64,000 nt of DNA, taken from the NCBI GenBank assembly GCA_026708325.1, contig JAPOVC010000014.1:372001-436000 (forward strand), in the 5' to 3' direction. The notes under the pieces are model-generated. The model searched no databases and was not told the DNA's origin. It was given only the letters and a program-made list of their open reading frames with translations. Both the position numbers and the translations under genes were made by a program. Of the stretch, positions 8,859 to 61,935 are shown one piece after another (the stretch's first letter is position 1; each line of letters begins with the position of its first letter). This DNA is from Anaerolineaceae bacterium (GTDB taxonomy: Bacteria; Chloroflexota; Anaerolineae; Aggregatilineales; Phototrophicaceae).

Positions 8859-9355
8859 GTCCCGGCATCCTGCAAACTGCGATACCGGGCGCTGTGGAGG
8901 TCGGTAATGGCCACTGCCAGGGCATCGGCTGCATCGTCCGGTCGAGGCCTGTCCTCCATCCCAAGCAGGATGCGTACCATTTCCTGCATCTGTGTCTTGC
9001 CGGCAGCGCCGTAACCGGCAATGGCCTGTTTGACCATGTTGGGTTTGTATTCGTAAACTGACAGACCGGCGGTGGCGAGCGTCAGCAAGATGACTCCGCG
9101 CCCCTGCGCGACCGTGATGGCAGTCGTCACATTTCGCGCAAAGAACATCTCTTCGACACCGGCCCGCTCCGGGCGCCAGTTCGCAATGATTTCTTCCAGT
9201 TCTTCATGAATGTGCTGCAGGCGCAAATGCATCGGATGGCCTGCTTCGGTGGTAATCACGCCATGACCCGGCGAAACGAGCGAACCGTCCGGCCTCTCCT
9301 GAACCAGCCCCCAGCCCACGCTGGCCGTGCCGGGATCAATGCCAAGAGAAAGCAT
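8855..9355 (-). CDS. ruvC: Crossover junction endodeoxyribonuclease RuvC
   Basis: RuvC resolves Holliday junctions by paired nicks. The 166-residue protein has the RNase H fold with its four acidic residues visible: D7 in GIDPGT, the first Glu of VEEMFFARN, and the two Asp in DDAADALAVA. The ATG shares its base with the TAA of yebC (TAATG), and the stop overlaps ruvA, giving a tightly coupled yebC-ruvC-ruvA order seen in many bacteria. Confidence 0.97.
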   Translation of the reverse strand: MLSLGIDPGTASVGWGLVQERPDGSLVSPGHGVITTEAGHPMHLRLQHIHEELEEIIANWRPERAGVEEMFFARNVTTAITVAQGRGVILLTLATAGLSVYEYKPNMVKQAIAGYGAAGKTQMQEMVRILLGMEDRPRPDDAADALAVAITDLHSARYRSLQDAGT

Positions 9356-10104
9356 TAGCTGCTTTCGTACGCCTCGGCCAGGTCTTCGCTGATTTGCAGA
9401 TTCGAAAACACGGATTGCACGTCGTCCAGTTCTTCCAGCCTCTCATGCAGGCGCATGTTTTGCAGCGCTTTTGCCTGCGGCAGGCCGGTTTCGTTGGCGG
9501 GCTCCCAACGCAGGCCGGATTCGGCTATTGTAAATCCGGCGTCAGCCAGCGACTGTTCCACGTTGGCCAGCATTTCATAGGGCGTCCAGACCTCGACCAA
9601 CCCTGCTTCTTCCACGACGTCGTCGGCACCGGCCTCCGCTGCGAGAAGGAACACTTCCTCAAAGTCAGGCGATCCCTCCAGGGAGATGAATCCCTTGCGC
9701 TGGAATTGCCAGGTGACGGCGCCAGCCGATGCCAGACTGCCGCCGGATTTGTTGAGCGCGTGCTTGATTTCCGCCAGAGTGCGGTTGCGGTTGTCCGTAA
9801 GCGTATCGATGAGATAGGCGACGCCATCCGGTCCGTAACCTTCGTAAGTGATCTCGACCAGGTCCTCACCTTCCAGCTGGCCCGAGCCGCGGAGAATTGC
9901 GCGTTCGATGTTTTCCCGCGGCATGTTTCCCGCCTTGGCCTTGGCAACGGCCAGTTTCAGCCGCGGGTTACTGGATTCGTCGGCGCCTCCCTCCCGGGCT
10001 GCTACCGTGATTTCCCGTGCCAGACGTGTGAAGATCTTTCCTCTTCTCGCGTCTTCCGCACCCTTCTTGCGCTTGATGGTAGACCATTTGCTGTGTCCGG
10101 ACAT
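9355..10104 (-). CDS. yebC: YebC/PmpR family protein
   Basis: A 249-residue YebC/TACO1 family protein, starting with the family signature MSGHSKWSTIKRKKGAED and continuing with RLAREITVAAREGG and the central LTDNRNRTLAEIKHAL. Members were first described as transcription regulators and are now also linked to relief of ribosome stalling at difficult sequences. GGAGG precedes the ATG by 5 bases. It heads the ruv operon and has its own recognisable promoter (10131-10159). Confidence 0.95.
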   Translation of the reverse strand: MSGHSKWSTIKRKKGAEDARRGKIFTRLAREITVAAREGGADESSNPRLKLAVAKAKAGNMPRENIERAILRGSGQLEGEDLVEITYEGYGPDGVAYLIDTLTDNRNRTLAEIKHALNKSGGSLASAGAVTWQFQRKGFISLEGSPDFEEVFLLAAEAGADDVVEEAGLVEVWTPYEMLANVEQSLADAGFTIAESGLRWEPANETGLPQAKALQNMRLHERLEELDDVQSVFSNLQISEDLAEAYESS

Positions 10105-10130
10105 GGGTCCCTCCAGGCAACGCCTGAGGA

Positions 10131-10159
10131 ATTGTAGCCCAGGCCCAGGACAGTGTCGA
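10131..10159 (-). promoter_or_regulatory. Sigma70-type promoter of yebC operon
   Basis: On the minus strand TCGACA (10159-10154), a 17-bp spacer and TACAAT (10136-10131). Each box matches consensus at five of six positions. The predicted transcript starts about 20 bases before the yebC ATG. Confidence 0.6.
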
Positions 10160-10168
10160 GACGGGCTG

Positions 10169-10177
10169 TGCTATACT
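10169..10177 (+). promoter_or_regulatory. Extended -10 promoter for gene at 10233
   Basis: TGcTATACT, an extended -10 element about 55 bases before the ATG at 10233 and divergent from the yebC promoter. No good -35 at 17 bp; AGGACA at 10147-10152 is 19 bp away. Confidence 0.5.
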
Positions 10178-10232
10178 TGCCGCCTTGCGCAAGCGAAGAA
10201 TTTCCTCCCTGCTGCAGGAGCATTTCATCAGG

Positions 10233-11618
10233 ATGACAACGGCTTCGTCGGGGGTCAGGGAAGAATCGCAACGGGCCAATCCCCAAATTCTTGCCTGGTC
10301 CATCCTGCTGTTGTCTTTCGCCTTTTTTTGCCTGCTGTTTGCCTCGTTTCTGGTCACCGCAGAGAACTTTCTCTTTCAGTCTTCCCTTCCGATGGAAGTG
10401 ATACTGAATGTTGGCCGTGGTACGGTGAGTGTTTCCGATCTGGCAAATCCCGTTGAACAGGTTGGAATCAACGGGTCAGCGATTGCGGATGGAGTCATCG
10501 TCCGCACGGACCCGCAGTCGCAGGGGACCATCAATTTTATCGATGGCGAAGAGGGGGAAGAACGTTTGCTGGCAACGCTTACCCTGCAAAGGAATTCCCG
10601 GGTCACCCTGCTCAGCGCCCAAAGACCGCGATTCCCCTGGAGCCGGCGTGGACACGAAATCGCCCTTCAGGATGTGATCGGTGAAATGAATCTCACGATA
10701 TCGGACTTTGTCGGCCAGGACATGCACGTGTTTGGCAGGACGCCGGGACGCGCCTGGTTGCAAATGTCCGGGCCCGGCACCTACACCATTGAGGGTGCAT
10801 CAGAAGAATTGCGTTTGTTTAACCATGACGGTCAGGTGCGCCTGGAATCGGCGGACGGCTTGCAAAGTCGAGACGTTTCGCCCGGCGCACAGGGTGCCGT
10901 ACTTTACGAGACTCCGCGGGTTGAAATCCGGCCGGGATACGTAAATTTGCTGAAGGATGAGGATTTCGCCCAACTGCAGGGTGGCGCGTCAACATCGGAT
11001 GGCACTGCCTGGACATGTGACCATGGGCAATCGGACAGTCCACCCGGCGCACATGAGATTCTGGATGCTTTCGGACTGGAATCGCTGCGCTTCTTGCGTG
11101 ATGGTGGCGTGACCTCACACGGAGAAAACTTCTGTGTGCAACAGTTCGGCCAAAGGGGGCTGGACCTGAAGCAATTTGACCTCGATTACCTCTCCATAAG
11201 AGTGTCTTTCTTCGTTGAGCGCGCGTCCCTTGGTTCCTGTGGCACGCATGGCAGTGAATGTCCGCTGATGCTCAGAATGGATTACCTGAACCAGGAATAC
11301 CTTGAACCGCAACAGGGCCTGCAACCGGGCGAAACCGGTGTTCGGGCCGTTCCACCCGGCGGCGACGCGATAAAGTGGCACCACGGCTTTTTCACCCATA
11401 CCCGGGAAGAATGGCCGATGCGCTGCGATACCTGCATACAGGACCACGAACTCATCCACGAAAAGAGCTGGTACGTCTACGAGAGCCCCAATTTACTGAC
11501 CTTGTTCTCCCCGAATCCGCCTCCTGAAATCATCGTCGGAGTCTGGGTCTATGCCTCGGGGCACGAGTATGACGTTCGCGTTCGGGACGTAGCCTTGCTG
11601 GCCAAACAAAGGTCATGA
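10233..11618 (+). CDS. Membrane-anchored extracellular protein, function unknown
   Basis: A 461-residue protein I do not recognise. A short cytoplasmic start is followed by one strong membrane helix (about 20-45, ILLLSFAFFCLLFASFLV). The following 200 residues are beta-rich with a FecR-like look (NVGRGTVSVSDL, then a glycine-rich GVIVRT and INFIDGEEGE), though too weak to assign. The last 200 residues contain paired cysteines (MRCDTCIQ, and GSCGTHGSECP) and look like a beta-sandwich ending in a YDVRVRDVALL strand. The frame is open upstream to a TTG at 10185, but the ATG at 10233 has AGGAG 12 bases before it. It stands alone between divergent yebC and the zinc-ribbon gene. Confidence 0.75.
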   Translation: MTTASSGVREESQRANPQILAWSILLLSFAFFCLLFASFLVTAENFLFQSSLPMEVILNVGRGTVSVSDLANPVEQVGINGSAIADGVIVRTDPQSQGTINFIDGEEGEERLLATLTLQRNSRVTLLSAQRPRFPWSRRGHEIALQDVIGEMNLTISDFVGQDMHVFGRTPGRAWLQMSGPGTYTIEGASEELRLFNHDGQVRLESADGLQSRDVSPGAQGAVLYETPRVEIRPGYVNLLKDEDFAQLQGGASTSDGTAWTCDHGQSDSPPGAHEILDAFGLESLRFLRDGGVTSHGENFCVQQFGQRGLDLKQFDLDYLSIRVSFFVERASLGSCGTHGSECPLMLRMDYLNQEYLEPQQGLQPGETGVRAVPPGGDAIKWHHGFFTHTREEWPMRCDTCIQDHELIHEKSWYVYESPNLLTLFSPNPPPEIIVGVWVYASGHEYDVRVRDVALLAKQRS

Positions 11619-46378: not shown

Positions 46379-47701
46379 GTGAACGACTATCGCTACGACG
46401 ACAACGAACACAGGGAAAGAGCCATTTTGGTGGGCGCGGCGATCAAGGGCAGCAACCCCTTGCTGGGCCTCGACGATTCGCTCGACGAACTGGCCCTGCT
46501 GGCGGACACGGCCGGCATGATGGTTTGCGGCAGAGCCAGCCAGCAGGTGGAACGCATTGACCCGGCGACCTGGATTGGTTCCGGCAAGGTGGATGAAGTC
46601 TGTTCCCTGATCGATGAATCTGACGCCGAAGTAGTGGTGTTTGACGACGAACTCTCGCCGCGTCATCAGCGCGAACTGGAGAAGCGCTTTGGCGAAGACG
46701 TCAAATTGCTGGACCGCTCGGCATTGATTCTGGATATTTTTGCCCAGCACGCCAGCACACGCGAAGGCGCGCTGCAGGTTGAGCTCGCCCAGTACGAGTA
46801 CCGCCTGCCGCGCTTGACCCGGCAATGGACGCATCTGGCCCGTCAGGCTGGAGGCGGCGCGGCGCGGGGCGGCGCAGGAGGTGTGGGACTGCGCGGCCCC
46901 GGCGAGACCCAGCTGGAAGTGGACCGCCGTGAAATTGGCCGCAAGATCCGAAAACTGAAACAGGACCTGTCCCAGGTCCGGGCGCACAGGGGCCGCTACC
47001 GCTCGCGCCGTACCCGTGGCAACATCCCGGTGGTCGCGCTGGTCGGTTATACCAACGCCGGCAAGTCCACTCTTTTTCGCGCCCTGACTGAGTCCAGCGT
47101 CTACGTCGCCGACCAGCTCTTTGCAACCCTTGATCCCACCACCCGCAAGACCCCGTTGCCTTCCGGCCGCGAAATCCTGCTGACGGACACTGTGGGCTTC
47201 ATTCAGAAGTTGCCCACCACGTTGATCGAGGCCTTTCAGGCCACGTTGGAGGAAGTGCTGGATGCCGACATGGCCCTGCACGTCGTGGATGCCTCGCATC
47301 CCAACGCACTTCAACATATTGAGGCGGTGGAGGATACGCTGGCCGCCATCGAAATGCCCCGTGTGCCCCATCTCCTGGTCTGGAACAAACTGGACCTGGC
47401 CGACGCCGAAGCGAAACAGCCACGCCTTCCGGGTGACCTCTATGCCGACGTCGCCGCGGTGTCGGCGCTCAAGGGAACGGGGCTGGACAACTTGCTTCAA
47501 CGGATTGAGAGTTTGCTGGCCGAAGGTGAACACGAGGTCCGGCTGCACCTGCCCTGGGACCGCGGAGACCTGATTTCGGTCCTCTATGATTCTGCAACCG
47601 TGGACCAGGTGGAACACAGGCCCGACGGCGTGACACTGACGGCTTCCCTCTCCGCCAGCCTCTACGACCGCTACAGAGAGTTTCTCGTCCCCACGCCATG
47701 A
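46379..47701 (+). CDS. hflX: Ribosome-splitting GTPase HflX
   Basis: HflX is a GTPase that dissociates stalled or idle ribosomes. The 440-residue protein has the N-terminal nucleotide-binding domain (WIGSGKVDEV, VVVFDDELSPRHQREL), the glycine-rich GGVGLRGPGETQLEVDRR, and G motifs GYTNAGKST (G1), TDTVGFIQKLP (G3) and NKLD (G4). The start is a GTG with a weak ribosome site 10 bp after trmFO. The stop overlaps the next gene as ATGA. Confidence 0.95.
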   Translation: MNDYRYDDNEHRERAILVGAAIKGSNPLLGLDDSLDELALLADTAGMMVCGRASQQVERIDPATWIGSGKVDEVCSLIDESDAEVVVFDDELSPRHQRELEKRFGEDVKLLDRSALILDIFAQHASTREGALQVELAQYEYRLPRLTRQWTHLARQAGGGAARGGAGGVGLRGPGETQLEVDRREIGRKIRKLKQDLSQVRAHRGRYRSRRTRGNIPVVALVGYTNAGKSTLFRALTESSVYVADQLFATLDPTTRKTPLPSGREILLTDTVGFIQKLPTTLIEAFQATLEEVLDADMALHVVDASHPNALQHIEAVEDTLAAIEMPRVPHLLVWNKLDLADAEAKQPRLPGDLYADVAAVSALKGTGLDNLLQRIESLLAEGEHEVRLHLPWDRGDLISVLYDSATVDQVEHRPDGVTLTASLSASLYDRYREFLVPTP

Positions 47702-48759
47702 GCGTTGGCCATTGCACCCGCCTTCTGCGTTCTCCTGAAGAGATGCAGGAAACCGTGGCCCTGCAACAGGAAATCTGGCATTCGCCCGGCGTCGAGGTCA
47801 TGCCGGTTCACGCCCTGTTAGCCACGTCAAAAAATGGCGGGCAGGTCCTGGGCGCATTCGTCGATGGCGCCCTGGCCGGAATGACCGTCGGGATGGCCGC
47901 CTGGCGCGACGGCCAACGTTTTCTGCTTTCCCACATGGCCGGCGTCCATCCGCGCTTTCAGGGCTCTGGCATCGGCACTGCCCTCAAATCGCGCCAAAGA
48001 GAAATAGCGCGTGACGCCGGCTATCGCAGCATTCGCTGGACCTTTGATCCCTTGCAACGAGGCAATGCCAATTTCAACTTTCGCCTGCCAGGAGTCAGTT
48101 CAGACCGATACTACGTGGACTACTACGGCGAAATGGAAGACGGGATCAATGCCGGCTTGCCCAGCGACCGGCTGGAAGCGCACTGGCCCACCCGCGGCAG
48201 ACGGCGACGCAAATCACCGGCGCCTGCATCGCCTGACCAACTCTTGCTCGCTTCCAACCGGGAGGGGCATCCAGAACACAGCGGCCCTGGCGAAAGTGAG
48301 GACGTCACCGGCATCGAGATTCCTGGGTCTCTGGCTGTGCTTAAGGAGAAGGACCCCTCGCTGGCGCTGGACTGGCGTCTGGCCGTACGAGAGGCCTTTG
48401 TCACGGCATTCGCCCGCGGGTTCCGGGCCGTGGACTTCATTTCCATGGATGAAAGGCCGGTCTATGTGCTTGCCGCGCCGCAACCCTGGTACCTCTACGT
48501 GTTGCAATGCAGTGACGGGTCGCTGTATACGGGCATAAGCGTGGACGTACAGCGCCGTCTTGGTCAGCATCAGGCAGGAAAGGGAGCCGTCTATACCGCC
48601 ATGCGCCGTCCCCTGCGCCTGCTGGCCTTCTGGCGTTATACCGGACAGGGGGCAGCCCGTCGCGCGGAAGCCGGCTTCAAGCAGTTGCCCAGAGCTGCCA
48701 AATTCGACCAGATAGCGTCGGCAACGACCTGGCAGGGCGGAAAACATCAGCGCCTGTAA
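47698..48759 (+). CDS. COG3375-like acetyltransferase fused to a GIY-YIG nuclease domain
   Basis: A 353-residue two-domain protein. Residues 1 to about 255 match the COG3375 GNAT-like family: the acetyl-CoA loop HPRFQGSGIGTALKSRQRE, then WTFDPLQRGNANFN and the late IEIPGSLAVLKEKDP and DWRLAVREAF blocks. Residues about 262-345 are a YhbQ-type GIY-YIG domain (WYLYVLQCSDGSLYTGISVD, RRLGQHQAGKG, then EAGFKQLPRAAK). The fold motifs Tyr, Arg and Glu are present, so the nuclease part may be active. It is coupled by ATGA to hflX. The reason for joining the two activities is unknown. Confidence 0.83.
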   Translation: MSVGHCTRLLRSPEEMQETVALQQEIWHSPGVEVMPVHALLATSKNGGQVLGAFVDGALAGMTVGMAAWRDGQRFLLSHMAGVHPRFQGSGIGTALKSRQREIARDAGYRSIRWTFDPLQRGNANFNFRLPGVSSDRYYVDYYGEMEDGINAGLPSDRLEAHWPTRGRRRRKSPAPASPDQLLLASNREGHPEHSGPGESEDVTGIEIPGSLAVLKEKDPSLALDWRLAVREAFVTAFARGFRAVDFISMDERPVYVLAAPQPWYLYVLQCSDGSLYTGISVDVQRRLGQHQAGKGAVYTAMRRPLRLLAFWRYTGQGAARRAEAGFKQLPRAAKFDQIASATTWQGGKHQRL

Positions 48760-48821: not shown

Positions 48822-50306
48822 ATGAGGAAGAAGTTTGCCCTGTTGCTGGCGTCCCTCATACTGCTCGTTCCGGCCCTTGCGGCTGGGGCGCAGGACCTGC
48901 CGGACCTCGGTGGCGCGACCATCACCGTGGCCGTCGAGAACGCCTACAAGCCCTTCAGCTTTATCGACGAGGCCAGCGGCGAAGCCGTCGGCTGGGACTA
49001 CGACACGCTCCACGAACTCTGTGACCGCCTTAACTGCGTGCCCGAATTCATCGAAACCGCCTGGGACGGCATGATCCTCGCCGTCTCCAACGGTGAATAC
49101 GACATGGCCGCCGACGGCATCACCATCAAGCCCGATCGCGCCGAAATCGTGGACTTCTCCGATGGCTACGTCTCCCTCGTGCAGGTCCTGCTCGGACGCA
49201 TCGACGAGATGCGCTTCGACGGTGGTGAGGCCCTCGCCGCGGACGAAAGCCTGCTGATCGGCGTCCAGCCCGGCACCACCAACTACTGGGTGGCGCTGGA
49301 ACTGGTCGGTGAGGAGCGCCTCGTCACCTACGAGACCTTCCCCGTCGCCGTGCAGGCCCTGATCGCCGGTGACGTCGACGCCGTCGTGATGGATGACGTC
49401 GCCGGTCAGGGTTACGTCGGCGTCAACGCCGACCTGCTGCAGATCGTCGGCGATCCGCTGACCTCCGAGGAAGAACTTGGATTCATCTTCCCGCTCGGCT
49501 CGGAGCTGCGCGATGCCATGAACGCCGGCCTCGATTCCATGCGCGAGGACGGCACGCTGGAGGCCATCAACAACAAGTGGTTCCTCGGGGCCGAACCTGC
49601 CGCGGCACTGCCGGACCTCGGTGGCGCGACCATCACCGTGGCCGTCGAGAACGCCTACAAGCCCTTCAGCTTTATCGACGAGGCCAGCGGCGAAGCCGTC
49701 GGCTGGGACTACGACACGCTCCACGAACTCTGTGACCGCCTTAACTGCGTGCCCGAATTCATCGAAACCGCCTGGGACGGCATGATCCTCGCCGTCTCCA
49801 ACGGTGAATACGACATGGCCGCCGACGGCATCACCATCAAGCCCGATCGCGCCGAAATCGTGGACTTCTCCGATGGCTACGTCTCCCTCGTGCAGGTCCT
49901 GCTCGGACGCATCGACGAGATGCGCTTCGACGGTGGTGAGGCCCTCGCCGCGGACGAAAGCCTGCTGATCGGCGTCCAGCCCGGCACCACCAACTACTGG
50001 GTGGCGCTGGAACTGGTCGGTGAGGAGCGCCTCGTCACCTACGAGACCTTCCCCGTCGCCGTGCAGGCCCTGATCGCCGGTGACGTCGACGCCGTCGTGA
50101 TGGATGACGTCGCCGGTCAGGGTTACGTCGGCGTCAACGCCGACCTGCTGCAGATCGTCGGCGATCCGCTGACCTCCGAGGAAGAACTTGGATTCATCTT
50201 CCCGCTCGGCTCGGAGCTGCGCGATGCCATGAACGCCGGCCTCGATTCCATGCGCGAGGACGGCACGCTGGAGGCCATTAACAACAAGTGGTTCCTCGGA
50301 GCCTGA
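48822..50306 (+). CDS. Amino-acid ABC transporter binding protein with two identical domains
   Basis: A 494-residue exported protein. A 25-residue signal peptide (ending AGAQD) is followed by a 232-residue family 3 solute-binding domain ([50 protein letters not shown]), a five-residue linker EPAAA, and a second copy identical in every residue. Each copy is a full two-lobed polar amino-acid binder. Codon use is unusually rich in CTC, GTC and GCC, as in a highly expressed gene. AAGGA lies 7 bases before the ATG. The permease gene follows after 45 bp. The duplication should be confirmed as real, not an assembly effect. Confidence 0.9.
48897..49592 (+). repeat. Direct repeat copy 1 (696 bp)
   Basis: First of two tandem copies offset by 711 bp. 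Copies differ at only two bases (49568 C versus 50279 T; 49589 G versus 50300 A), both silent. Confidence 0.97.
49608..50303 (+). repeat. Direct repeat copy 2 (696 bp)
   Basis: Second copy, separated from the first by a 15-bp in-frame spacer coding EPAAA and ending at the stop codon of the gene. Confidence 0.97.
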
Positions 50307-52509: not shown

Positions 52510-54027
52510 ATGCGCTTGCCTCGACTGACAGAGCTGGCACTGTTGTGTTGCCTGGCGCTGCTGACGCTTTCCTGTAGCCCTTCCCGGCAGGGAGGGGACC
52601 TGCTGGTGACGCTGCTGACCGACGGTTCGGAGCGTTCCATTCTGGTGCCTGCATCCACTTCTGTGTCTTCCCTGCTCGAACAGGCGGATGTCGTGCTGGG
52701 CCCCCTCGATCGGATCGAGCCCCCACTGACCACCATGCTGCTTGATGACACCCGCATTACGATCGTCCGGGTGCTTGAAGAGGAGCGCTGCCAGCGCCAC
52801 CCCATTCCCTTTCGGGTAGTTGGCCCTGGCGAAACTGCCAGCGGCGCCACCCAACGCGTTCAGACGGGCTTGCCGGGAGAGGAAGAACGCTGCCATCGAA
52901 TTCGATTTGAGGACGGAATCGAACGGGACCGCGTGGAAACCAGCCGTGTCGTCATTCGAGAAGCGGTTGATGAAGTCTGGCAGGAAGACACCCTGACCGA
53001 AGTCGAGCCGCTTTCCTTTCCCGGGACTCTGGTCTGGTTGAGCGGCGGCAATGCATGGCTGGCGCGCGGGAACAGCGACCGGTTGCGCCAGTTGACGCAG
53101 GACGGGAAACTGGATGGCAGGGTGCTGTCGCTTTCTGCCGACGGCAACCGCCTACTCTACACAAGAAAACAGGTTGAAGAGCGAAATAATTCGGGTGGCA
53201 ATGCATTGTGGCTCATCCAGGACCTGGACAATCCTTCCAATATTGTTCGGCTGCTGCCGGAGAACGTACTTCATGCCGGCTGGAGGCCAGGAAGTGCCGT
53301 GGAATTCGCCTATACGGACAGCGCGGCGAAGAAGAGTGTCTCGATTTTGCGCATTGATCCCGATACAGGAGAGATCCTGTCGTTTCGCGAACTGCTGGCA
53401 CCGAATCCTGAGGACGGAGCGCAGCATGCCATCACAGGTTTCAATTGGTCAGGTGATGGCAGGCAGCTCTCCTGGGTGCAGGGGGCTTCCATCGGAATAA
53501 TGGATATGAACGGCAACAACGTCTCCTTGTCATCGGGTGAAACCGGCATTGGGAACGCGACGGCCCCTTGCGCCAGTCATGCTCCGGTCTGGTCCCCTGA
53601 CAACCGCTTCGTCGCGATCGCTTCGCCGGCAAGGTTGGATGCGCCTTCATCGCTTTCCATCATCGACTGGAAGGGTGAATTGCAGGTCCCGCTGGTGACA
53701 AACGTTGGGCCCTGCCCCGCACCCGCGTGGGCGCCGGTTCGGGAGTCCGGATTGCTGGCCCATTTGCAGGCCAGGGACCCCGACCGCCCTGTCTCGCGCG
53801 CGGGTCATGAACTGATGATTCTTGATCGCGACGGCAGCAATCAGACATTGCTTTTCCCGGATGCCGGTCAGCCCGGTCTTGAGCCACAGCAAGTGGTCTG
53901 GAGCTCGGACGCGCGGCTGCTCGCCCTGATCTGGCAGGAACAACTTTGGCTTGTCGACGTCCTCAGCGCCGAGGCATGGCCATTTCCATTCTCCGGCGAC
54001 GTTTCCCGCATTGAGTGGTCTCGCTGA
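52510..54027 (+). CDS. Lipoprotein with DUF348, G5 and TolB-like propeller domains
   Basis: A 505-residue lipoprotein. The signal peptide ends in a lipobox (LTLSC, Cys about 22). Residues about 30-90 form a DUF348 domain (RSILVPASTSVSSLLEQADVV), about 90-155 a G5 domain (RCQRHPIPFRVV, then RIRFEDGIERDRVETSR), and about 170-505 a TolB-like beta-propeller (LSLSADGNRLLYTR, APVWSPDNRFVAIASPA). DUF348-G5 modules occur in wall-associated proteins and G5 binds sugars or zinc. Its TGA shares a base with the next ATG (TGATG), coupling it to the glycosidase-ligase fusion. Confidence 0.8.
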   Translation: MRLPRLTELALLCCLALLTLSCSPSRQGGDLLVTLLTDGSERSILVPASTSVSSLLEQADVVLGPLDRIEPPLTTMLLDDTRITIVRVLEEERCQRHPIPFRVVGPGETASGATQRVQTGLPGEEERCHRIRFEDGIERDRVETSRVVIREAVDEVWQEDTLTEVEPLSFPGTLVWLSGGNAWLARGNSDRLRQLTQDGKLDGRVLSLSADGNRLLYTRKQVEERNNSGGNALWLIQDLDNPSNIVRLLPENVLHAGWRPGSAVEFAYTDSAAKKSVSILRIDPDTGEILSFRELLAPNPEDGAQHAITGFNWSGDGRQLSWVQGASIGIMDMNGNNVSLSSGETGIGNATAPCASHAPVWSPDNRFVAIASPARLDAPSSLSIIDWKGELQVPLVTNVGPCPAPAWAPVRESGLLAHLQARDPDRPVSRAGHELMILDRDGSNQTLLFPDAGQPGLEPQQVVWSSDARLLALIWQEQLWLVDVLSAEAWPFPFSGDVSRIEWSR

Positions 54028-57000
54028 TGCGTCAGTCGGTTCTGGTCCTTGTCTCGCTGGCCGCCGTTGCCGGCAGCCTGGTGGCAACGCTGGTTACCGT
54101 TGTCGAACGCGATCGTCTGCTGCGCGGGTACGCCAATGCCACACAGATGATTGACCTTCCCCCGGTGCAGCCAGAACTCGGCGTCAATGCCGAGTTGACG
54201 CAATACACGGCAGACGAACTGGACGATCACCTTACCCGCATGGACAGGGCGGGCATCACCTGGCTGCGTCAGCAATTCCGGTGGAATGAAATCGAAACGC
54301 AGCCGGGAGTATATGACTGGGACGAAACGGACAACATCGTCGCCGCCCTTGCGGACCATCCGCAAATGCGACTGGTCGCCGTTTTGCTAAACACCCCCGC
54401 CTTTGCCCGCAGCGTTGACCACGTAACAGCCCCACCGCGAGACCCGGCCGCATTCGCCGCCTTCGCGCAGGTCTTCGCAGGCCGTTATGGGGATGTTATC
54501 GACTATTACCAGATTTGGGACGAGCCCAACCTGACAGACGCATGGGGGCAACTGGACCCGTCGCCGACGCATTACCTTAAGATGTTGCAGGCCGCCTGGC
54601 GGGTCATTCATGACGTTGATGCAGAAGCTACCGTCATCGCTGCCGCTCTGGCGCCAACCACCGAAAAGGGGCCACGCAACGTCAGCGACATCGACTATCT
54701 GGCGTCCCTGTATGCGCTCGGCGCCGCCGACTGGATGGACGTCGTCGCCGCCAAGCCCTATGGCTTCGATACTTCACCGGACGATCGCCGTGTGTCGCCC
54801 GACCACCTGAACTTTTCGCGCATCATCGCCCTGCGCGAACTCATGACGCGCCATGGCGATGGCGACAAGCCCATGCATGCCAGCGCCTGGGGCTGGAACA
54901 GCCTGCCGGAAGACTGGAGTGGCGCGCCTTCAATTTGGGGTGCAGTGACCAGCGAACAACGCAGCGAGTGGACTCTGGCGGCGCTGGAACGGGCGCAACG
55001 GGAATGGCCCTGGCTGGGCGCCATGATCTTGCAGCATTGGCAGCCGCCGTACCCGGTTGACGATCCGCAACAGGGTTTCGCGCTGCTGGATGCCAACAAT
55101 CAGGAGACGCCCACCCTGCTGGCGCTTGAAGCGCGCGCGCCCGCCAGAGGCGCAGGGGTCGGCTTTCACCCGGTGGACAGCCCATGGGCGCAGTACAGCG
55201 GCCAGTGGTCCTTTGGTATCCAGGGCGCAGACTTCGGTTGGTCCAATGACAGCGAAGTGCTGTTTGACTTCATCGGTGAGGAAGTAGCCCTGCGCGTGCG
55301 GGAAGGGGATTATGTCGCCTGGTTTTACGCCAGCGTAGACGGGGAACCGGCCAACGCCCTGCCCCGCGATCCGAAGGGCAATGCCTACCTCACCCTGACC
55401 AGCGCCACCCGTCAGCCCAGGGAACAGCTCGTGACCCTGGCCCGCGATCTGGGTCCGGGTCCGCATCGCCTGACGCTTTCGGCAGTTGATCTGGTGGCGC
55501 AGGAACGCCAGCCACGTTGGGCGTTTGGCGGCTTCGCAGTCGGCCTGGGCGATCCTGCGCTCAGCTGGCAGCGGCAAATCAGCGCCGGCCTGCTGGCAAC
55601 CGTGGTGTCGGCTTTTGCCCTGTTCCAGTCGCTCAGGGGCCTCGAATGGCGAGGGCTGCTGGATCGCCTGGCAGGCAAATGGCCCTCTCCGCCCTTTGGG
55701 CCCGAACGCCTTGTCGGCCTTCTTGCTTCGCTTATCCTGATGGTCGGCATGTTGTTTACCTGGGGAGACGCGTTGCCGGCACTGGTCCGGCGTGAGGCAC
55801 TCCACCCCTTGCTGGCCGTCTTCACCGCCGGGCTCGTCCTCCTGCAGCCCGGGCCATTGATCACCCTCGTTGCCCTGTTGCTTCTCTTTGTATTGTTCTT
55901 CAATCGTCCGGCACTGGGACTGATGCTCACGCTCTTTTGGGCGCCCTTCTACCTGTTTCCGCTCCAGCTCTTCCGCTTCGCCTTTCCACTGGCGGAGGTG
56001 ATGATCCTGCTAACCACCCTGGCATGGAGTAGCCGACAGTTGCTGAATTGGGCGCGACAGCACAAGGGACTGCTCCAAAGATCACCGTCTGCGCCTCGAG
56101 TTCGTGCGGTGAATTCACTGGATTTGCTGCTGTTGCTGTGGCTGCTGTTTGGGTTGGTCGCCTTCACCTGGTCACGGGAAAGCGGGCCGGCCCTGACCGA
56201 ATTGCGCGTTCTCTTTGTCGAGCCCGCCCTCTTCTATTTGATCTTCCGACACGAAGCGCGGGACCTGAAGACGCGAACTCAACTGACGGACGCCCTGCTC
56301 GCGGCCGGGTTGCTGGTCGCGTTGATTGGCCTGTGGCTCTTCTTCAGGGGCGAAGGGGTTATCACCGCTGAGGGTGGGGCCCGTCGACTGGTCAGCGTTT
56401 ACGGCTCTCCCAACAATGCCGCCCTTTTCCTCGGGCGTTGTTTGCCATTTGCGCTGGCCTGGACGCTGTCGGGGCCCTGGCAGCTGCGTCGCTGGCTGGC
56501 GCTTGCGATCAGCGTTGTCTGCCTGCTGGCCTTCCTCCTGACGCAAAGTGCCGGTGGATTGCTGCTGGGCCTGCCGCTTTCGCTGGCGACCCTTGCGCTG
56601 ATCCACTGGCGGCGCCGTGCAATCCTGCCACTGGTTGGTCTGTCCGCGGTCGGCGCTGCCACTTTCGCCATTCTCACGGCCAGCAGCCCGCGCTTTGCCC
56701 GCCTGCTCGATTTTACCAGCGGCACGGTGCGCATCCGTTTGCAACTGTGGCAAAGTACCCTGGCCATGTTGCGCGACGACCCCCTGCGTGGCCTTGGGCT
56801 GGACCAGTTTCTCTACGCCTATCGTGACATCTGGATTCTGCCGGACGCCTGGCGTGAGCCCAATTTGTCCCATCCCCACAACATCCTGTTTGACTTCTGG
56901 GTCCGCCTGGGCCTGGCGGGCCCGCTGCTTTTGATCGCCCTGCTGGCCGCCTTTTGGCGCGGAGCGCTCCAGGCCCTGCGCCGCGTATCCCGATATGAAG

Positions 57001-57158
57001 AAAAAGCCCTGCTGGCCGGCGCCGCAGGCTCCATGGTCAGCCTTGTTGCGCACGGTCTGGTCGACAACAGTGTGTTCATCCACGACCTGGTGTACGTCTT
57101 TGTCCTGCTCCCAGGTCTCGTATGCAACGCAGGGATGGACGAAAAACGGGCCGATTGA
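54027..57158 (+). CDS. Glycosidase-like domain fused to O-antigen-ligase-like membrane domain
   Basis: A 1043-residue protein. One N-terminal helix (about 4-26) leads to an external GH39/cellulase-like TIM barrel (about 45-400) with acid/base Glu166 in YQIWDEPNL. The expected nucleophile segment (usually TEFGW) reads S286-A-W-G-W290, so the nucleophile Glu is Ala. A beta-sandwich (about 400-500) follows, then about 11-12 helices with a Wzy_C/WaaL-like motif ([12 protein letters not shown], then [12 protein letters not shown], about 905-945). It may recognise one glycan and join another to it. The frame is open four codons upstream. Confidence 0.8.
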
Positions 57159-57209: not shown

Positions 57210-58145
57210 TTGCGACTGCTGATTACCGGTGGCGCCGGTTTCATTGGGTCCCATCTCTGTGACCGGGCGCTTGCCGAAGGCCACGACGTCGTGGCCATGG
57301 ACAGTCTCATCACCGGCAATCGCGCCAACATTGCACACCTCGAAGACAACCCGGCCTTTCGCTTCATCCAGCACGACGTTACAAGGTACATTGACTTTGA
57401 GGGGCCGCTGGACGTCGTGCTGCATTTTGCTTCACCTGCCAGCCCGGTCGACTACGTCAAACTGCCCATCCAGACCCTCAAGGCCAGTTCGCTGGGAACG
57501 CACAATGCCCTTGGTCTGGCGCGCGCCCGCGGCGCCCGCTTCCTGCTGGCCTCAACCTCCGAGGTCTATGGGGACCCGAAAGTGCATCCCCAGCATGAAA
57601 GCTACGTCGGTCACGTTGATACGTTGGGTCCGCGTGGTGTCTATGACAACGCCAAACGTTATGCGGAAGCGCTTACCATGGCTTTCCACCGCGTTCATGG
57701 CATCGATACCCGAATCGTTCGCATTTTCAACACCTACGGGCCTCGCATGCGCCTGGCAGATGGCCGCGTTGTGCCCAATTTCATCGCACAGTCCCTGCGT
57801 GGCGAGCCGCTCACGGTATACGGCGATGGCTCCCAGACCCGCAGTTTTCAGTACGTCAATGACCTGATTGAGGGCGTTTGGCGCCTGCTCGAAACGCCCT
57901 GTCACGAACCGGTGAACATTGGCAATCCGCGAGAAATGACGATTATGAACTTTGCCATGGTCGTCAATGAATTGACGAACAATCCGGCGGGGATCATATT
58001 CAAGACCGATTCACGGATGACGGGCGACCCCCAGACGCGTCAGCCGGACATTTCCCGCGCGCGGAAGGTGCTTGGCTGGGAGCCGCAGGTGGGCTTGCGC
58101 GAAGGACTCGCCAGCACCATTGATTTCTTCCGGAATGTGATGTGA
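57210..58145 (+). CDS. NAD-dependent nucleotide-sugar epimerase/decarboxylase (UXS-like)
   Basis: A 311-residue short-chain dehydrogenase of the extended type. It has the NAD site [14 protein letters not shown], the UDP-glucuronate decarboxylase-like [11 protein letters not shown] and [14 protein letters not shown], and the catalytic Tyr-Lys in YDNAKR (YDEAKR in most UXS). It would make UDP-xylose or a related sugar for the glycan cluster; an epimerase role is possible. The start is a TTG with GGAGGA 4 bases upstream. The stop overlaps the next gene (GTGA). Confidence 0.88.
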
Positions 58146-59617
58146 TCGCAACGTTTGGAAGGATACAAGCGCCGGACCGGTTTGTTCCTGCCCTGCTGCT
58201 TCTGGCAGTTCTGACAGGTCTGGCGCTGGTTTTCCTTCCGGAATCCCTTCTGCTCACAGCGACCGTGCTGGCCCTGCTTGCGCTGCCTTGTCTGATTTCG
58301 TCCCGGGCCGCGTTGTTTCCGCTTCTGGTTTTGGCTCCCATGCGCGTCCTTATTCAGACCGAGGTCGGTCCGGTCCTCCCCCTGGATATCGGCCAGGTCC
58401 TGTTCCTGGTTTGGCTATTGGTCTGGGGCCTGCACCACATTGCGCTGCGCCAGCGTCTGCCGCGTCTTTTGCTGCCGCCGGTCGTTGTTCCCCTCCTGGT
58501 TTTCCTGCTGGTCGCCGGCATTTCGCTGCTCAACGCAGTCTCTGTCGCTGCCTGGCTACGTGAGTGGCTCAAGTGGATGTCGATCGTCCTGGTCATTTTG
58601 ATCGTTGGCAACAGCATGCAGGTCCGTGCCTGGCGCTGGCCTGTGCGGGCCCTGCTGCTGGCTGGCGCCGTCAACGCTACAGTGGGCCTGTACCAGTTTT
58701 TCGGAGGCAGCGGCGCCCTGCATTTTCTGGTCGGCGGTCGTTTCTTTCGTGCCTTTGGCACCTTTGGCCAACCCAATCCGCTGGGTGGTTTCATGGCCCT
58801 GTTGCTTCCCCTTGCCCTGTGTCTCCTGCTGGCCGGCCTCAGGCGCTGGCTCCGGACCCGTTGCAAGGCGGACCTGCTCTCCCTGTGTGTCCGGGCCCTG
58901 CCGACCGCCTTGTTGCTCGCCGGCCTGGTGGCTTCATGGAGCCGGGGCGCGTGGCTGGCTTTCCTCGTCGCCATGCTCGTGACGCTGCTGGCCCTGCCCC
59001 GGCGATTTGTGCATGGTCTGCAGCTTGCGGGCGGCGTGTTGCTATTGACTGCACTGCTGTGGTCGACGGGAGTATTGCCCGCTTCCCTCGGCGAACGCCT
59101 TGCCAGTTCGACCGAGGGTTACCTTGGCTTCGACGACATGCGCGGGGCCGACATCAACCCGGGGAATTACGCTGTGGTCGAGCGCCTGGCGCACTGGCAG
59201 GCCGCATTGAACATGGCATCGGCACGTCCCTGGACAGGCGTTGGACTGGGGAACTACGAACACGCCTATCCGCAGCATCGACTGATCGACTGGCCGGAAG
59301 CACTTGGCCACGCCCACAATTACTGGCTCAACCAGTTGGCAGAAACCGGCCTGACAGGAATGGCGGCCTGGTGTTTCATGTGGCTGGCCATCGTCCTGTT
59401 TACCTTGCGCGCCCGCCAACATCCTGACGACGAGGCCCGACTGGTGGTCGTCGGCCTGCTCGGCGCGTGGACCAGCCTTGCCGTCCACAGCCTCTTCGAC
59501 AACCTGTTTGTAAACAATCTGTTCCTGCACGTCGGCTTCCTGCTGGGCGTCCTTGCCGTGCTGCACCGCCAGGCATGTGAATTTAAATCCAGGCCCGTGA
59601 TTCACATCGGGCAATGA
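58142..59617 (+). CDS. O-antigen ligase/polymerase family protein
   Basis: A 491-residue membrane protein with about 11-12 helices and the Wzy_C/WaaL signature: [15 protein letters not shown] followed by [18 protein letters not shown] near residues 360-405. Such proteins polymerise or transfer lipid-linked glycans outside the membrane. It is separate from the fused ligase-like domain at 54027, so the cluster has two. GTG start coupled to the UXS-like gene. Confidence 0.85.
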
Positions 59618-60192
59618 ACAGACTGGTGCACAACAACCCCCTGGACCGCGCCATTGTGGCCCTGGCCAGCCGTTCCGGCGCACGGGCCCGGGAAGTTGAA
59701 CGCTTCCTTCGCTTTTCGGTCGTCGGCGTCATTGGCGCGGTGGTTGACCTGGGAACGCTCACGCTGTTGCAGGCCACCCTGCTGCCACCCACGTCGGATT
59801 TCAGGGTTCAACTGGCGACCGGCACGGGCTTTATCGTTGCAGTCCTGAACAATTTTCTGTGGAACCGCTACTGGACCTATCCCGATTCCCGTTCCCGCAG
59901 TGTTCACCGCCAACTTGCCCAGTTCACACTGGTCAACGCGGTCGGGCTGGTTGTGCGGACCACCCTGATTTCCCTGACCTATGCCTCTTTGGGCAACTTG
60001 TTGCTGCCCGCCGCCCTGCCATTGATTCGATTTTGGCGCCCTGGTTACGAGCCCTCATTCACTGCCGAGGCAAAAGTCGGCACGACGGCGGCCTGGGTGA
60101 TCGCCGTCATAGTGGTCATGCTCTGGAATTTCTTCATCAACCGATACTGGACTTACAGCGACGTCGATCATGGTGCCGGGCATCGGAATTGA
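59614..60192 (+). CDS. GtrA family membrane protein
   Basis: A 192-residue protein with four helices of the GtrA type, thought to flip polyprenyl-linked sugars. Two repeats of the motif N-NFLWNRYWTY and WNFFINRYWTY end the helix pairs. ATGA overlap with the ligase gene; the 3' end overlaps the glycosyltransferase gene by 23 bp. Confidence 0.85.
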   Translation: MNRLVHNNPLDRAIVALASRSGARAREVERFLRFSVVGVIGAVVDLGTLTLLQATLLPPTSDFRVQLATGTGFIVAVLNNFLWNRYWTYPDSRSRSVHRQLAQFTLVNAVGLVVRTTLISLTYASLGNLLLPAALPLIRFWRPGYEPSFTAEAKVGTTAAWVIAVIVVMLWNFFINRYWTYSDVDHGAGHRN

Positions 60193-61321
60193 CTACACGC
60201 CGGCGTGGGAACAGGGCGCGGGCATTGGACGCTATGTTCGTGAACTGGTCGCCGCCCTGGCCCGGGAAGACAGGGACAGAGCCTGGCGCCTGTTTGTTGC
60301 CGGCTCGCGCAAGAGTCGCTTGCCGAAGCCGCCAGGGGAAAACTTCCATTGGCGGCCCGCGCCGTTTTCGGCAAGGTCGCTGCAGAGACTCTGGTTCCGC
60401 GCCCACCTTCCCCTGCCGGTCGAAACATTCACCGGCCCACTGACCCTGTTTCATGCCACCGATTTCGTGCTGCCACCGGTAAGACGCGGGACCAGGACAC
60501 TTGTTCAGGTCCATGACCTGTCTTTCCTGCGGGTGCCGGAAACGTCGCCGCCCGCCCTTCGATCCTGGCTGGAACACGTCGTTCCGGCCTCGGTGAGACG
60601 CGCCGATCACGTGTTGGCCGACTCATCCGCTACGCGCGACGATCTCCTTGAGCATTACAAAGAGACTCCAGGCACAAGGATCACTGTGCTCCATGGCGGC
60701 GTGGACGAGCGCTTCCTGCCCGAGCCTGCCGGGAAGCAGCTGGCCGCCCGCAAGAAGTACGGACTTGACCAATGGCCCTTCATTTTCTCCGTTGGCACGC
60801 TTCAGCCGCGCAAGAACCATGGTCGCCTGGTGCAGGCCCTTTCCCGCCTGGTGGAGGGCGGTCTGGACCTGCATTTGGTCATTGCAGGTGGCGCCGGGTG
60901 GCTGTCAGAGCCCTTCCATCAACAACTTCGGGAAAGTGAAATCGAAGACCGCGTGCATTTGACCGGTTTCGTGGACGATGCCGACCTGCCAGCACTTTAC
61001 AGCGCCGCGGAGGTCTTCGCCTTCCCTTCCCTCTACGAGGGCTTCGGCCTGCCAGTGCTGGAAGCCATGGCCTGCGGTACTCCGGTCGTCACTTCTGATC
61101 TTTCGTCACTACCGGAAGTAGCGGGAGATGCAGCCCTGCTGACAGACCCCCTGGATGTTGAAGCCCTTGCGGATGCCCTGCGGCGGCTGATCAGTGACAG
61201 CCAGTTGCGCCAGCAATTGATTCGGGCCGGTCAGACAAGAGCCGGGCAATTCACCTGGAGAAGGGCGGCCCTGCAATTGCTTGACGTTTATCGCAGGGTG
61301 GGAGACTCGCCTGCGCCATGA
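60170..61321 (+). CDS. Glycosyltransferase family 4 (GT-B)
   Basis: A 383-residue GT-B enzyme that adds a sugar from a nucleotide donor. The N-terminal acceptor loop GAGIGRYVRELVAAL, the linker SVGTLQPRKNHGRLVQA, and the donor site PSLYEGFGLPVLEAMACGTPV followed by SSLPEVAGDAAL are all present. Part of the coupled polysaccharide operon. Confidence 0.93.
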   Translation: MVPGIGIDYTPAWEQGAGIGRYVRELVAALAREDRDRAWRLFVAGSRKSRLPKPPGENFHWRPAPFSARSLQRLWFRAHLPLPVETFTGPLTLFHATDFVLPPVRRGTRTLVQVHDLSFLRVPETSPPALRSWLEHVVPASVRRADHVLADSSATRDDLLEHYKETPGTRITVLHGGVDERFLPEPAGKQLAARKKYGLDQWPFIFSVGTLQPRKNHGRLVQALSRLVEGGLDLHLVIAGGAGWLSEPFHQQLRESEIEDRVHLTGFVDDADLPALYSAAEVFAFPSLYEGFGLPVLEAMACGTPVVTSDLSSLPEVAGDAALLTDPLDVEALADALRRLISDSQLRQQLIRAGQTRAGQFTWRRAALQLLDVYRRVGDSPAP

Positions 61322-61935
61322 AACGCGCATTGCTCCCGTTGTGGCCGGTTGGGTTGGGCTTGCTGGCCTGTTTCCTGCCCTGGATGGAAAGCGCAGGAAA
61401 TACCTTGACTCTTAATCTTTGGGACCTGGCCGAATGGTGCAGCATCAATCCCCTTTCCCGCCATGCCAACATTCCTCTGGGAGCCAGCCTCGGTTTGCGC
61501 AGTTTGCCGCTCTTCCTGCTGGCCCTCGCCATCTGGCGCGACGCGATGCCCACGCCTCTGCGTATGACACTAACCCTGTTGACGGCCATCGCCGTGCTTC
61601 CCCCACCGGAATTTCTGTTGGGAGATGCGGGCGACCCCAATCACCGCCAACAACTTGCTCTTGGATTCGTGGCGTTGCTCTGCGGTTTTGCCTGCAGGTT
61701 TCCCTTCGTACGACGACCGCTGATTCTTCGGGGTACGGGATTGATTGCGATGGCAGTTGCGTGGCTATCCCTTTCAGCAGCGCTTGCCCTGCAAAAGGGT
61801 CTTGGGCTGGAGACGCATCCCGGCCCCGGATTTCTTTTGTTTATGTTCGCCATGCTGTGGCTGGAAGTGTTTGGCTTGCAAAACATCAGGGCGACCCGAC
61901 ACGAGTCGCCCTGGAGATTCCTGGTGGGGAGTTGA
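61318..61935 (+). CDS. Membrane protein, unknown
   Basis: A 205-residue protein with about five or six helices and no recognised family. It overlaps the glycosyltransferase stop by ATGA and ends the polysaccharide operon one base before convergent acpP. A role in glycan export is only a guess from position. Confidence 0.6.
   Translation: MKRALLPLWPVGLGLLACFLPWMESAGNTLTLNLWDLAEWCSINPLSRHANIPLGASLGLRSLPLFLLALAIWRDAMPTPLRMTLTLLTAIAVLPPPEFLLGDAGDPNHRQQLALGFVALLCGFACRFPFVRRPLILRGTGLIAMAVAWLSLSAALALQKGLGLETHPGPGFLLFMFAMLWLEVFGLQNIRATRHESPWRFLVGS

Follow-up and report, generated by a model that had tools for sequence, protein, structure and literature searches.

A GH39-type barrel with a broken catalytic pair, fused to a Wzy_C-type glycan ligase or polymerase in Anaerolineae (Chloroflexota)

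The fused gene and its predicted domains

We analysed a window of 64,000 nucleotides from an Anaerolineaceae bacterium (Chloroflexota, class Anaerolineae; assembly GCA_026708325.1, contig JAPOVC010000014.1, positions 372,001 to 436,000), in which one open frame joins a barrel of glycoside hydrolase family 39 (GH39) type, akin to the endoglycosidase PslG of Pseudomonas aeruginosa, to a membrane domain of the Wzy_C family. The barrel carries Ala where PslG has its catalytic nucleophile, and comparison of aligned sequences shows loss of the catalytic pair across the class. The gene, its domains and its active-site positions (coordinates of the window) are as follows.

54027..57158, + strand: fused gene for a pseudo-GH39 barrel and a Wzy_C ligase/polymerase (1043 aa); open frame from ATG to stop
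54030..54119, + strand: N-terminal helix, residues 2-31, likely membrane anchor (helix in the model; hydrophobic sequence)
54165..55154, + strand: PslG/GH39-type barrel, residues 47-376 (phmmer and VIA matches to PslG)
54519..54524, + strand: D165-E166 (WDEPN), E166 being the acid/base position and D165 replacing the usual Asn (alignment to PslG)
54753..54761, + strand: K243-P-Y245 of the sixth barrel strand, where PslG has His-x-Tyr (alignment)
54885..54887, + strand: A287 (SAWGW) at the nucleophile position, Glu276 in PslG (alignment)
55146..55574, + strand: jelly-roll domain, residues 374-516, CE2-N/CBM35-like (model confidence 87; VIA structure matches)
55800..57125, + strand: polytopic WaaL-fold ligase/polymerase domain, residues 592-1033 (Pfam Wzy_C; Foldseek 7tpg_B)
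56877..56921, + strand: HN motif of 15 residues (letters not shown), fitting H[NSQ]X9GXX[GTY]

An alternative start, GTG, lies 12 bases 5' of the ATG at 54027, but we favour the ATG because it overlaps the stop codon of the upstream gene by one base (TGATG), an arrangement that suggests that the two genes are probably translated together. A structure model of the 1043-residue protein, built from 29 sequences, had a mean predicted local distance difference test score (pLDDT; the confidence listed above) of 83.5, mostly above 90 in the barrel, with the linker at residues 540-589 poorly predicted. Residues 47-376 have the (beta/alpha)8 fold of GH39: PslG was the best solved relative by sequence (phmmer against solved structures, E 9e-17) and the best match by structure (VIA; 9g17, Z 33.5, root-mean-square deviation 3.4 over 325 residues; 4zn2, Z 33.2, deviation 2.4 over 307), the next matches being other GH39 enzymes. 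The structure prediction and superposition proposed in the initial annotation, a model's reading of the bare sequence, led to PslG. The jelly roll on its own matched the N-domain of a carbohydrate esterase of family 2 (CE2; 2waa, Z 13.3) and carbohydrate-binding module (CBM) family 35 (2w47, Z 11.4), which gives it the CE2-N/CBM35 fold, while remaining under the Pfam cut-off for CE2_N (24.5 versus 27.9 bits). That domain, like a second Wzy_C gene downstream (listed below), had gone unmentioned in the initial annotation.

Two altered positions in the active site of the window barrel

In PslG, Glu165 is the acid/base and Glu276 the nucleophile, as given in PMC11912335. The phmmer alignment sets SAWGWN of the window barrel against TEWGWS of PslG, so that A287 falls at Glu276 and the nucleophile Glu on strand 7 is missing; the acid/base Glu on strand 4 is present as E166, aligned with Glu165. 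Missing as well is the Asn that precedes the acid/base, with D165 in a position where PslG and nearly all stand-alone relatives carry Asn. Since the motif reads WDEPN and not WNEPN, a second active-site residue has changed besides the nucleophile, making two positions and not one.

The initial annotation had placed a retained acid/base at E166, an Ala at 287 and an HPHN motif at 949-952, and all three hold in the numbering from ATG 54027. Its central claim, that the nucleophile is lost, proved real, with A287 at the PslG Glu276 position and the same loss recurring in the class; a substitute Glu at that position, which could have overturned it, was absent from the sequence alignment. We rejected chance or an assembly artefact as the source of the Ala, which orthologues of 80-90% identity (loci L034 and L035) also carry.

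Catalytic residues in fused and stand-alone barrels

Barrel matches at E 1e-3 or better, stand-alone paralogues included, occurred in 190 of the 199 genomes of the class. One family (f29), with none in nine genomes, was the sole family of the class without any. The sample comprised the best 150 rows of the class search, 49 loci from a genome-wide contig scan with the full-length window protein as query (all assigned to Chloroflexi/Chloroflexota or to groups taken to belong there), eight paralogues from the organism's own genome, and 60 stretches picked from a search of 400 genomes of the phylum, 143 of which matched at 1e-30. The alignment kept 279 of 298 barrel open reading frames, after removal of window copies, identical domains, and those shorter than 230 aa or scoring below 150 bits; the fused and stand-alone counts leave out 12 rows truncated at the end of a contig. 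Rows of the class are the loci numbered below L211 plus L234 and L235, class membership of the 49 scan loci being partly inferred from similarity. All counts are of non-identical rows, among which those resembling the window protein, itself the query, are over-represented.

The survey of the Glu/Ala position that the initial annotation had called for showed position 287 to be other than Glu in 115 of the 168 fused barrels of the class. The letters were E 53, N 29, A 25, H 23, S 13, Q 8, G 6, D 5, T 3, R 2 and F 1. One or both catalytic Glu were missing from 134 of these barrels and both were present in 34, while Asn165 was found in none (0/168). Because so many barrels are non-Glu at 287 (115/168) and lack at least one Glu (134/168), the broken state of the window barrel exceeds chance, and we likewise rejected the idea that the nucleophile was lost in the window protein alone. 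Among the 135 broken fused rows of all lineages, only the nucleophile was lost in 99, only the acid/base in 19, and both in 17.

In contrast, the Asn-Glu pair and second Glu were intact in 35 of the 39 fused barrels outside the class, the remaining four being three with both Glu and Asp165 and one broken (L215). Stand-alone or split barrels (n=61) had Glu287 in 59 cases and both Glu in 58, with Glu166 in 59 of the 60 that have a letter there; the exceptions were L202 (a cut row of the fused type, with Ala), the upstream partner at L240 (Ala) and L124 (fused type, apparently split, with Gln). Clustering at 70% identity gave broken pairs in 90/111 fused barrels of the class and 1/15 outside it, and both Glu in 27/30 stand-alone barrels.

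Within broken rows, position 287 is no more constrained than an ordinary variable column (rank 267 of 324, with an entropy of 2.97 bits), whereas N168, Y183, D238 and G289 are each present in 135/135, W164 in 133/135 and Y245 in 126/135. The acid/base was lost in 36 of 207 fused rows, mostly to amides (18 Q and 15 N); amides can still form hydrogen bonds but are not acidic, a pattern suggesting that the site calls for the former property and not for the latter. Across the 73 rows of the window's own subclade, D165, E166 and Y245 are invariant (73/73 each) and K243 is found in 72, with position 287 distributed as N 30, H 19, Q 9, A 8, S 5 and E 2 and undergoing at least 20 letter changes against 17 for the median column (quick IQ-TREE tree, 78 rows). 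D165 and K243 occur together in 126/207 fused rows, but clear covariation of the two was rejected, as the association visible in the counts did not reach significance among independent pairs (median p 0.25); coupling of Glu287 loss with the state of E166 was rejected as well (median p 1).

A FastTree tree computed with the four active-site columns masked, its root uncertain, required at minimum 14 changes between Glu and non-Glu at the nucleophile, 15 at the acid/base, and 49 changes of letter at 287. Related rows share events and row counts are therefore not numbers of losses. The contrast between fused barrels inside and outside the class is also partly one of ancestry.

The ligase/polymerase domain

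The initial annotation had also seen a polytopic domain with a Wzy_C/WaaL-like HPHN motif, and this was borne out: Pfam Wzy_C matched far over its cut-off (E 1.5e-18, 67.4 versus 31.7 bits), and the membrane part matched the WaaL structure 7tpg_B in Foldseek (E 1.6e-8, TM-score by target 0.66), which places it in the WaaL fold. WaaL was absent from the VIA match list of the full-length model because barrel matches fill that list, and the absence says nothing against the fold. The HN motif fits H[NSQ]X9GXX[GTY], a motif of WaaL. In broken-pair rows that reach this part, H949 and H951 are each present in 131/131 and R904 in 132/132. Periplasmic residues conserved in WaaL are H338, R288 and R215, as cited in PMC3643930; in the fused protein H949, H951, R904 and R787 are conserved and may include counterparts of these. 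The bicarbonate transporter IctB (TIGR00947) was rejected as an identity for this domain, at 51 bits against a cut-off of 366.

Operon context, and split or tandem relatives

The fused gene lies among the following genes of the window.

52510..54027, + strand: G5/DUF348 plus propeller-like protein, its stop overlapping the ATG of the fused gene (Pfam; conserved neighbour)
57210..58145, + strand: nucleotide-sugar epimerase/dehydratase family (family match; conserved neighbour)
58142..59617, + strand: second Wzy_C protein, without barrel, two genes downstream (Pfam; retained alongside the fused gene; HN motif again, at residue 392)
59614..60192, + strand: GtrA-family membrane protein (Pfam; conserved neighbour)
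60170..61321, + strand: glycosyltransferase of family GT4 (family match; conserved neighbour)
61318..61935, + strand: small hydrophobic protein (conserved in the locus)

This order, from the G5/propeller gene through the fused gene to the small hydrophobic protein, is common to most of the 49 loci on a long enough contig, the exceptions being L055 and L069 (fused gene only), L071 and L073 (epimerase without the second Wzy_C), and L065 and L075 (epimerase about 2-4 kb further away).

Other lineages encode the barrel and the Wzy_C part in two neighbouring genes (L211, L212, L213, L214, L263 and L267) or have them parted by a single in-frame stop (L236 and L258), and the split-gene loci L274, L275 and L276 have the same epimerase and second Wzy_C downstream. 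The initial annotation had held that relatives in which the fusion splits into two unrelated genes would count against it. Splitting does occur, but the halves remain neighbours within one operon, and this speaks for a functional connection between them. Immediately upstream of the fused gene, a stand-alone barrel is encoded in 28 of the 37 phylum-batch loci with enough upstream sequence (two of the 37 being class members) and in none of the 58 class loci whose upstream sequence reaches 900 bases or more. Two tandem pairs are reciprocal: at L215 the fused barrel is broken and the upstream one intact, while at L240 the upstream stand-alone barrel (680-1936) lacks Asn165 and the nucleophile and the fused one is intact. 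A plausible series, drawn from these arrangements, would run from a separate live hydrolase beside the ligase, through a tandem live hydrolase and fusion, to a fusion whose hydrolase is disabled.

Some further features were observed. In the organism's own genome (L271:9152-12684), a stand-alone barrel with both Glu (9152-10804) overlaps a gene for a PMT_2-type membrane glycosyltransferase, so that here too a GH39-like barrel is paired with a glycosyltransferase of the membrane. Elsewhere in the window, 48822-50306 holds two head-to-tail copies of a solute-binding protein gene identical over 688/690 bases (230/230 aa), and the relative L035 has the duplication in the same layout (669/690 bases); the repeat may reflect recent duplication, gene conversion or an assembly effect. 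At 47698-48759, GNAT acetyltransferase and GIY-YIG nuclease domains share one frame.

Interpretation

We judge it probable that a captured hydrolase, once fused, has become a non-hydrolytic glycan-binding module of a glycan ligase or polymerase. Its parts differ in strength. The recurrence of nucleophile loss across the class gives good support to one suggestion of the initial annotation, that the barrel has ceased to be an ordinary retaining glycosidase, and we are confident that the barrel is not a retaining hydrolase. That it binds glycan seems likely, and that it guides the ligase has about an even chance. A glycan receptor guiding the ligase, as originally proposed, is a plausible description, fitting because pocket residues are kept, Q or N stands at the acid/base in sister lineages, the jelly roll is CBM-like and the ligase residues are invariant. 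On the simplest account, the barrel ceased to cut after fusion but retained its cleft for glycan. Under such a scheme, a WaaL/Wzy-type glycan ligase or polymerase would have gained a membrane-anchored PslG-like hydrolase by fusion, and this hydrolase would then have lost its hydrolytic machinery; its cleft, outside the cytoplasmic membrane, would still bind the growing or lipid-linked glycan and pass it to the ligase site of that polypeptide, the CBM-like jelly roll perhaps assisting, and specificity or chain length might thereby be set without cutting.

Several observations weigh against this interpretation. The 34 fused barrels of the class with both Glu, all with a residue other than Asn at 165, may be active. 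The losses are nested in related lineages, so that the tree needs only about 14 changes between Glu and non-Glu. The 7tpg match has a target TM-score of 0.66, and the domain may act as a ligase, a polymerase or a protein O-glycosylase. Finally, the E165Q+E276Q double mutant of PslG, also used in PMC9075953, did not restore Psl production in P. aeruginosa according to PMC6813494; the nearest studied relative thus needs catalysis, and function must have shifted, or else a live paralogue serves elsewhere. The organism's own genome has live-type paralogues, for example L271:9152-10804.

Were the barrel a vestigial spacer or folding scaffold for the ligase or partner proteins, with no glycan binding, free drift at 287 and the loss of both catalytic residues in 17 of 135 broken rows would be natural. 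This we consider unlikely, as the cleft-side residues N168, Y183, D238, W164 and Y245 remain conserved in the 135 broken rows, and invariant D165, E166 and Y245 in the window's subclade would not be expected of a pure spacer, though some may serve the fold. The constancy of D165, E166, K243 and Y245 beside a varying 287, and the co-occurrence of D165 with K243, would instead suit an enzyme whose site has been rewired, with D165, E166 and K243 (or a group of the substrate) replacing the nucleophile to yield an inverting hydrolase, a lyase or a ligase-coupled transglycosylase. However, E166 is lost in sister lineages, GH39 is a retaining family (PMC11912335), the D165-K243 link fell short of significance on independent pairs, and D165 adjoins E166 and, to judge from the fold of the clan, would not lie on the opposite face; we therefore regard such rewiring as improbable, and so too, for the window's own subclade, the different mechanism that the initial annotation offered as an alternative. 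Equally doubtful is the form of rewiring in which D165, E166, K243 and Y245, lacking a fixed nucleophile, would carry out a novel reaction on the nascent glycan, such as transfer or an inverting step, coupled within the chain to the Wzy_C site. Least probable, in our estimate, is that the broken barrel acts together with, or regulates, live stand-alone barrels encoded at other places in the genome. Eight other matches in the organism's own genome, those in the alignment having both Glu, speak for it, as do the lineages with a live barrel gene directly upstream of the fused gene and the L215 and L240 pairs with one broken partner, but class loci lack any such upstream barrel (0/58).

Relation to known systems and significance

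Several known systems come close to the fused protein. PslG resembles it in barrel fold (Z 33.5), acid/base Glu and, as described in PMC6813494, inner-membrane association and location in a polysaccharide locus, but has the Asn-Glu pair and Glu276, is a separate protein, and must be active for Psl production (PMC6813494); the window barrel has Asp for Asn and Ala287 for Glu276, and is fused to a ligase. With the O-antigen ligase WaaL (7tpg) the protein shares the fold, Pfam Wzy_C and the HN-X9-G motif, and perhaps the conserved His and Arg positions, and it differs in the added N-terminal pseudo-barrel and jelly roll. Klotho proteins, pseudo-GH1 co-receptors, also have membrane-anchored glycosidase-like domains that lack catalytic Glu and are used for binding, but they are animal hormone co-receptors of GH1 type with no fused glycan ligase, and some residual activities are reported (PMC5715364). 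The split and tandem operons of other Chloroflexota have the gene order and homologous barrel and Wzy_C parts, but there the barrel stands apart or is present twice, and its catalytic residues are mostly intact. Literature searches, mostly excluding subscription papers, yielded no description of a GH39-Wzy_C fusion or its broken active site. PslG, WaaL and pseudo-glycosidases like Klotho are known kinds, and it is the ligase-fused pseudo-GH39 barrel spread through a class that we did not find described.

Our data suggest that an operon for surface glycan with two Wzy_C enzymes, so far uncharacterised, is widespread. The purpose of the hydrolase that is often encoded in polysaccharide loci is debated, and the natural series of live separate hydrolase, live tandem and disabled fusion bears on it. 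Should glycan still be bound by the disabled barrel, the hydrolase would contribute to polysaccharide synthesis partly by recognition and not by cutting, which the natural series of Asn/Glu/Glu states offers a direct way to test.

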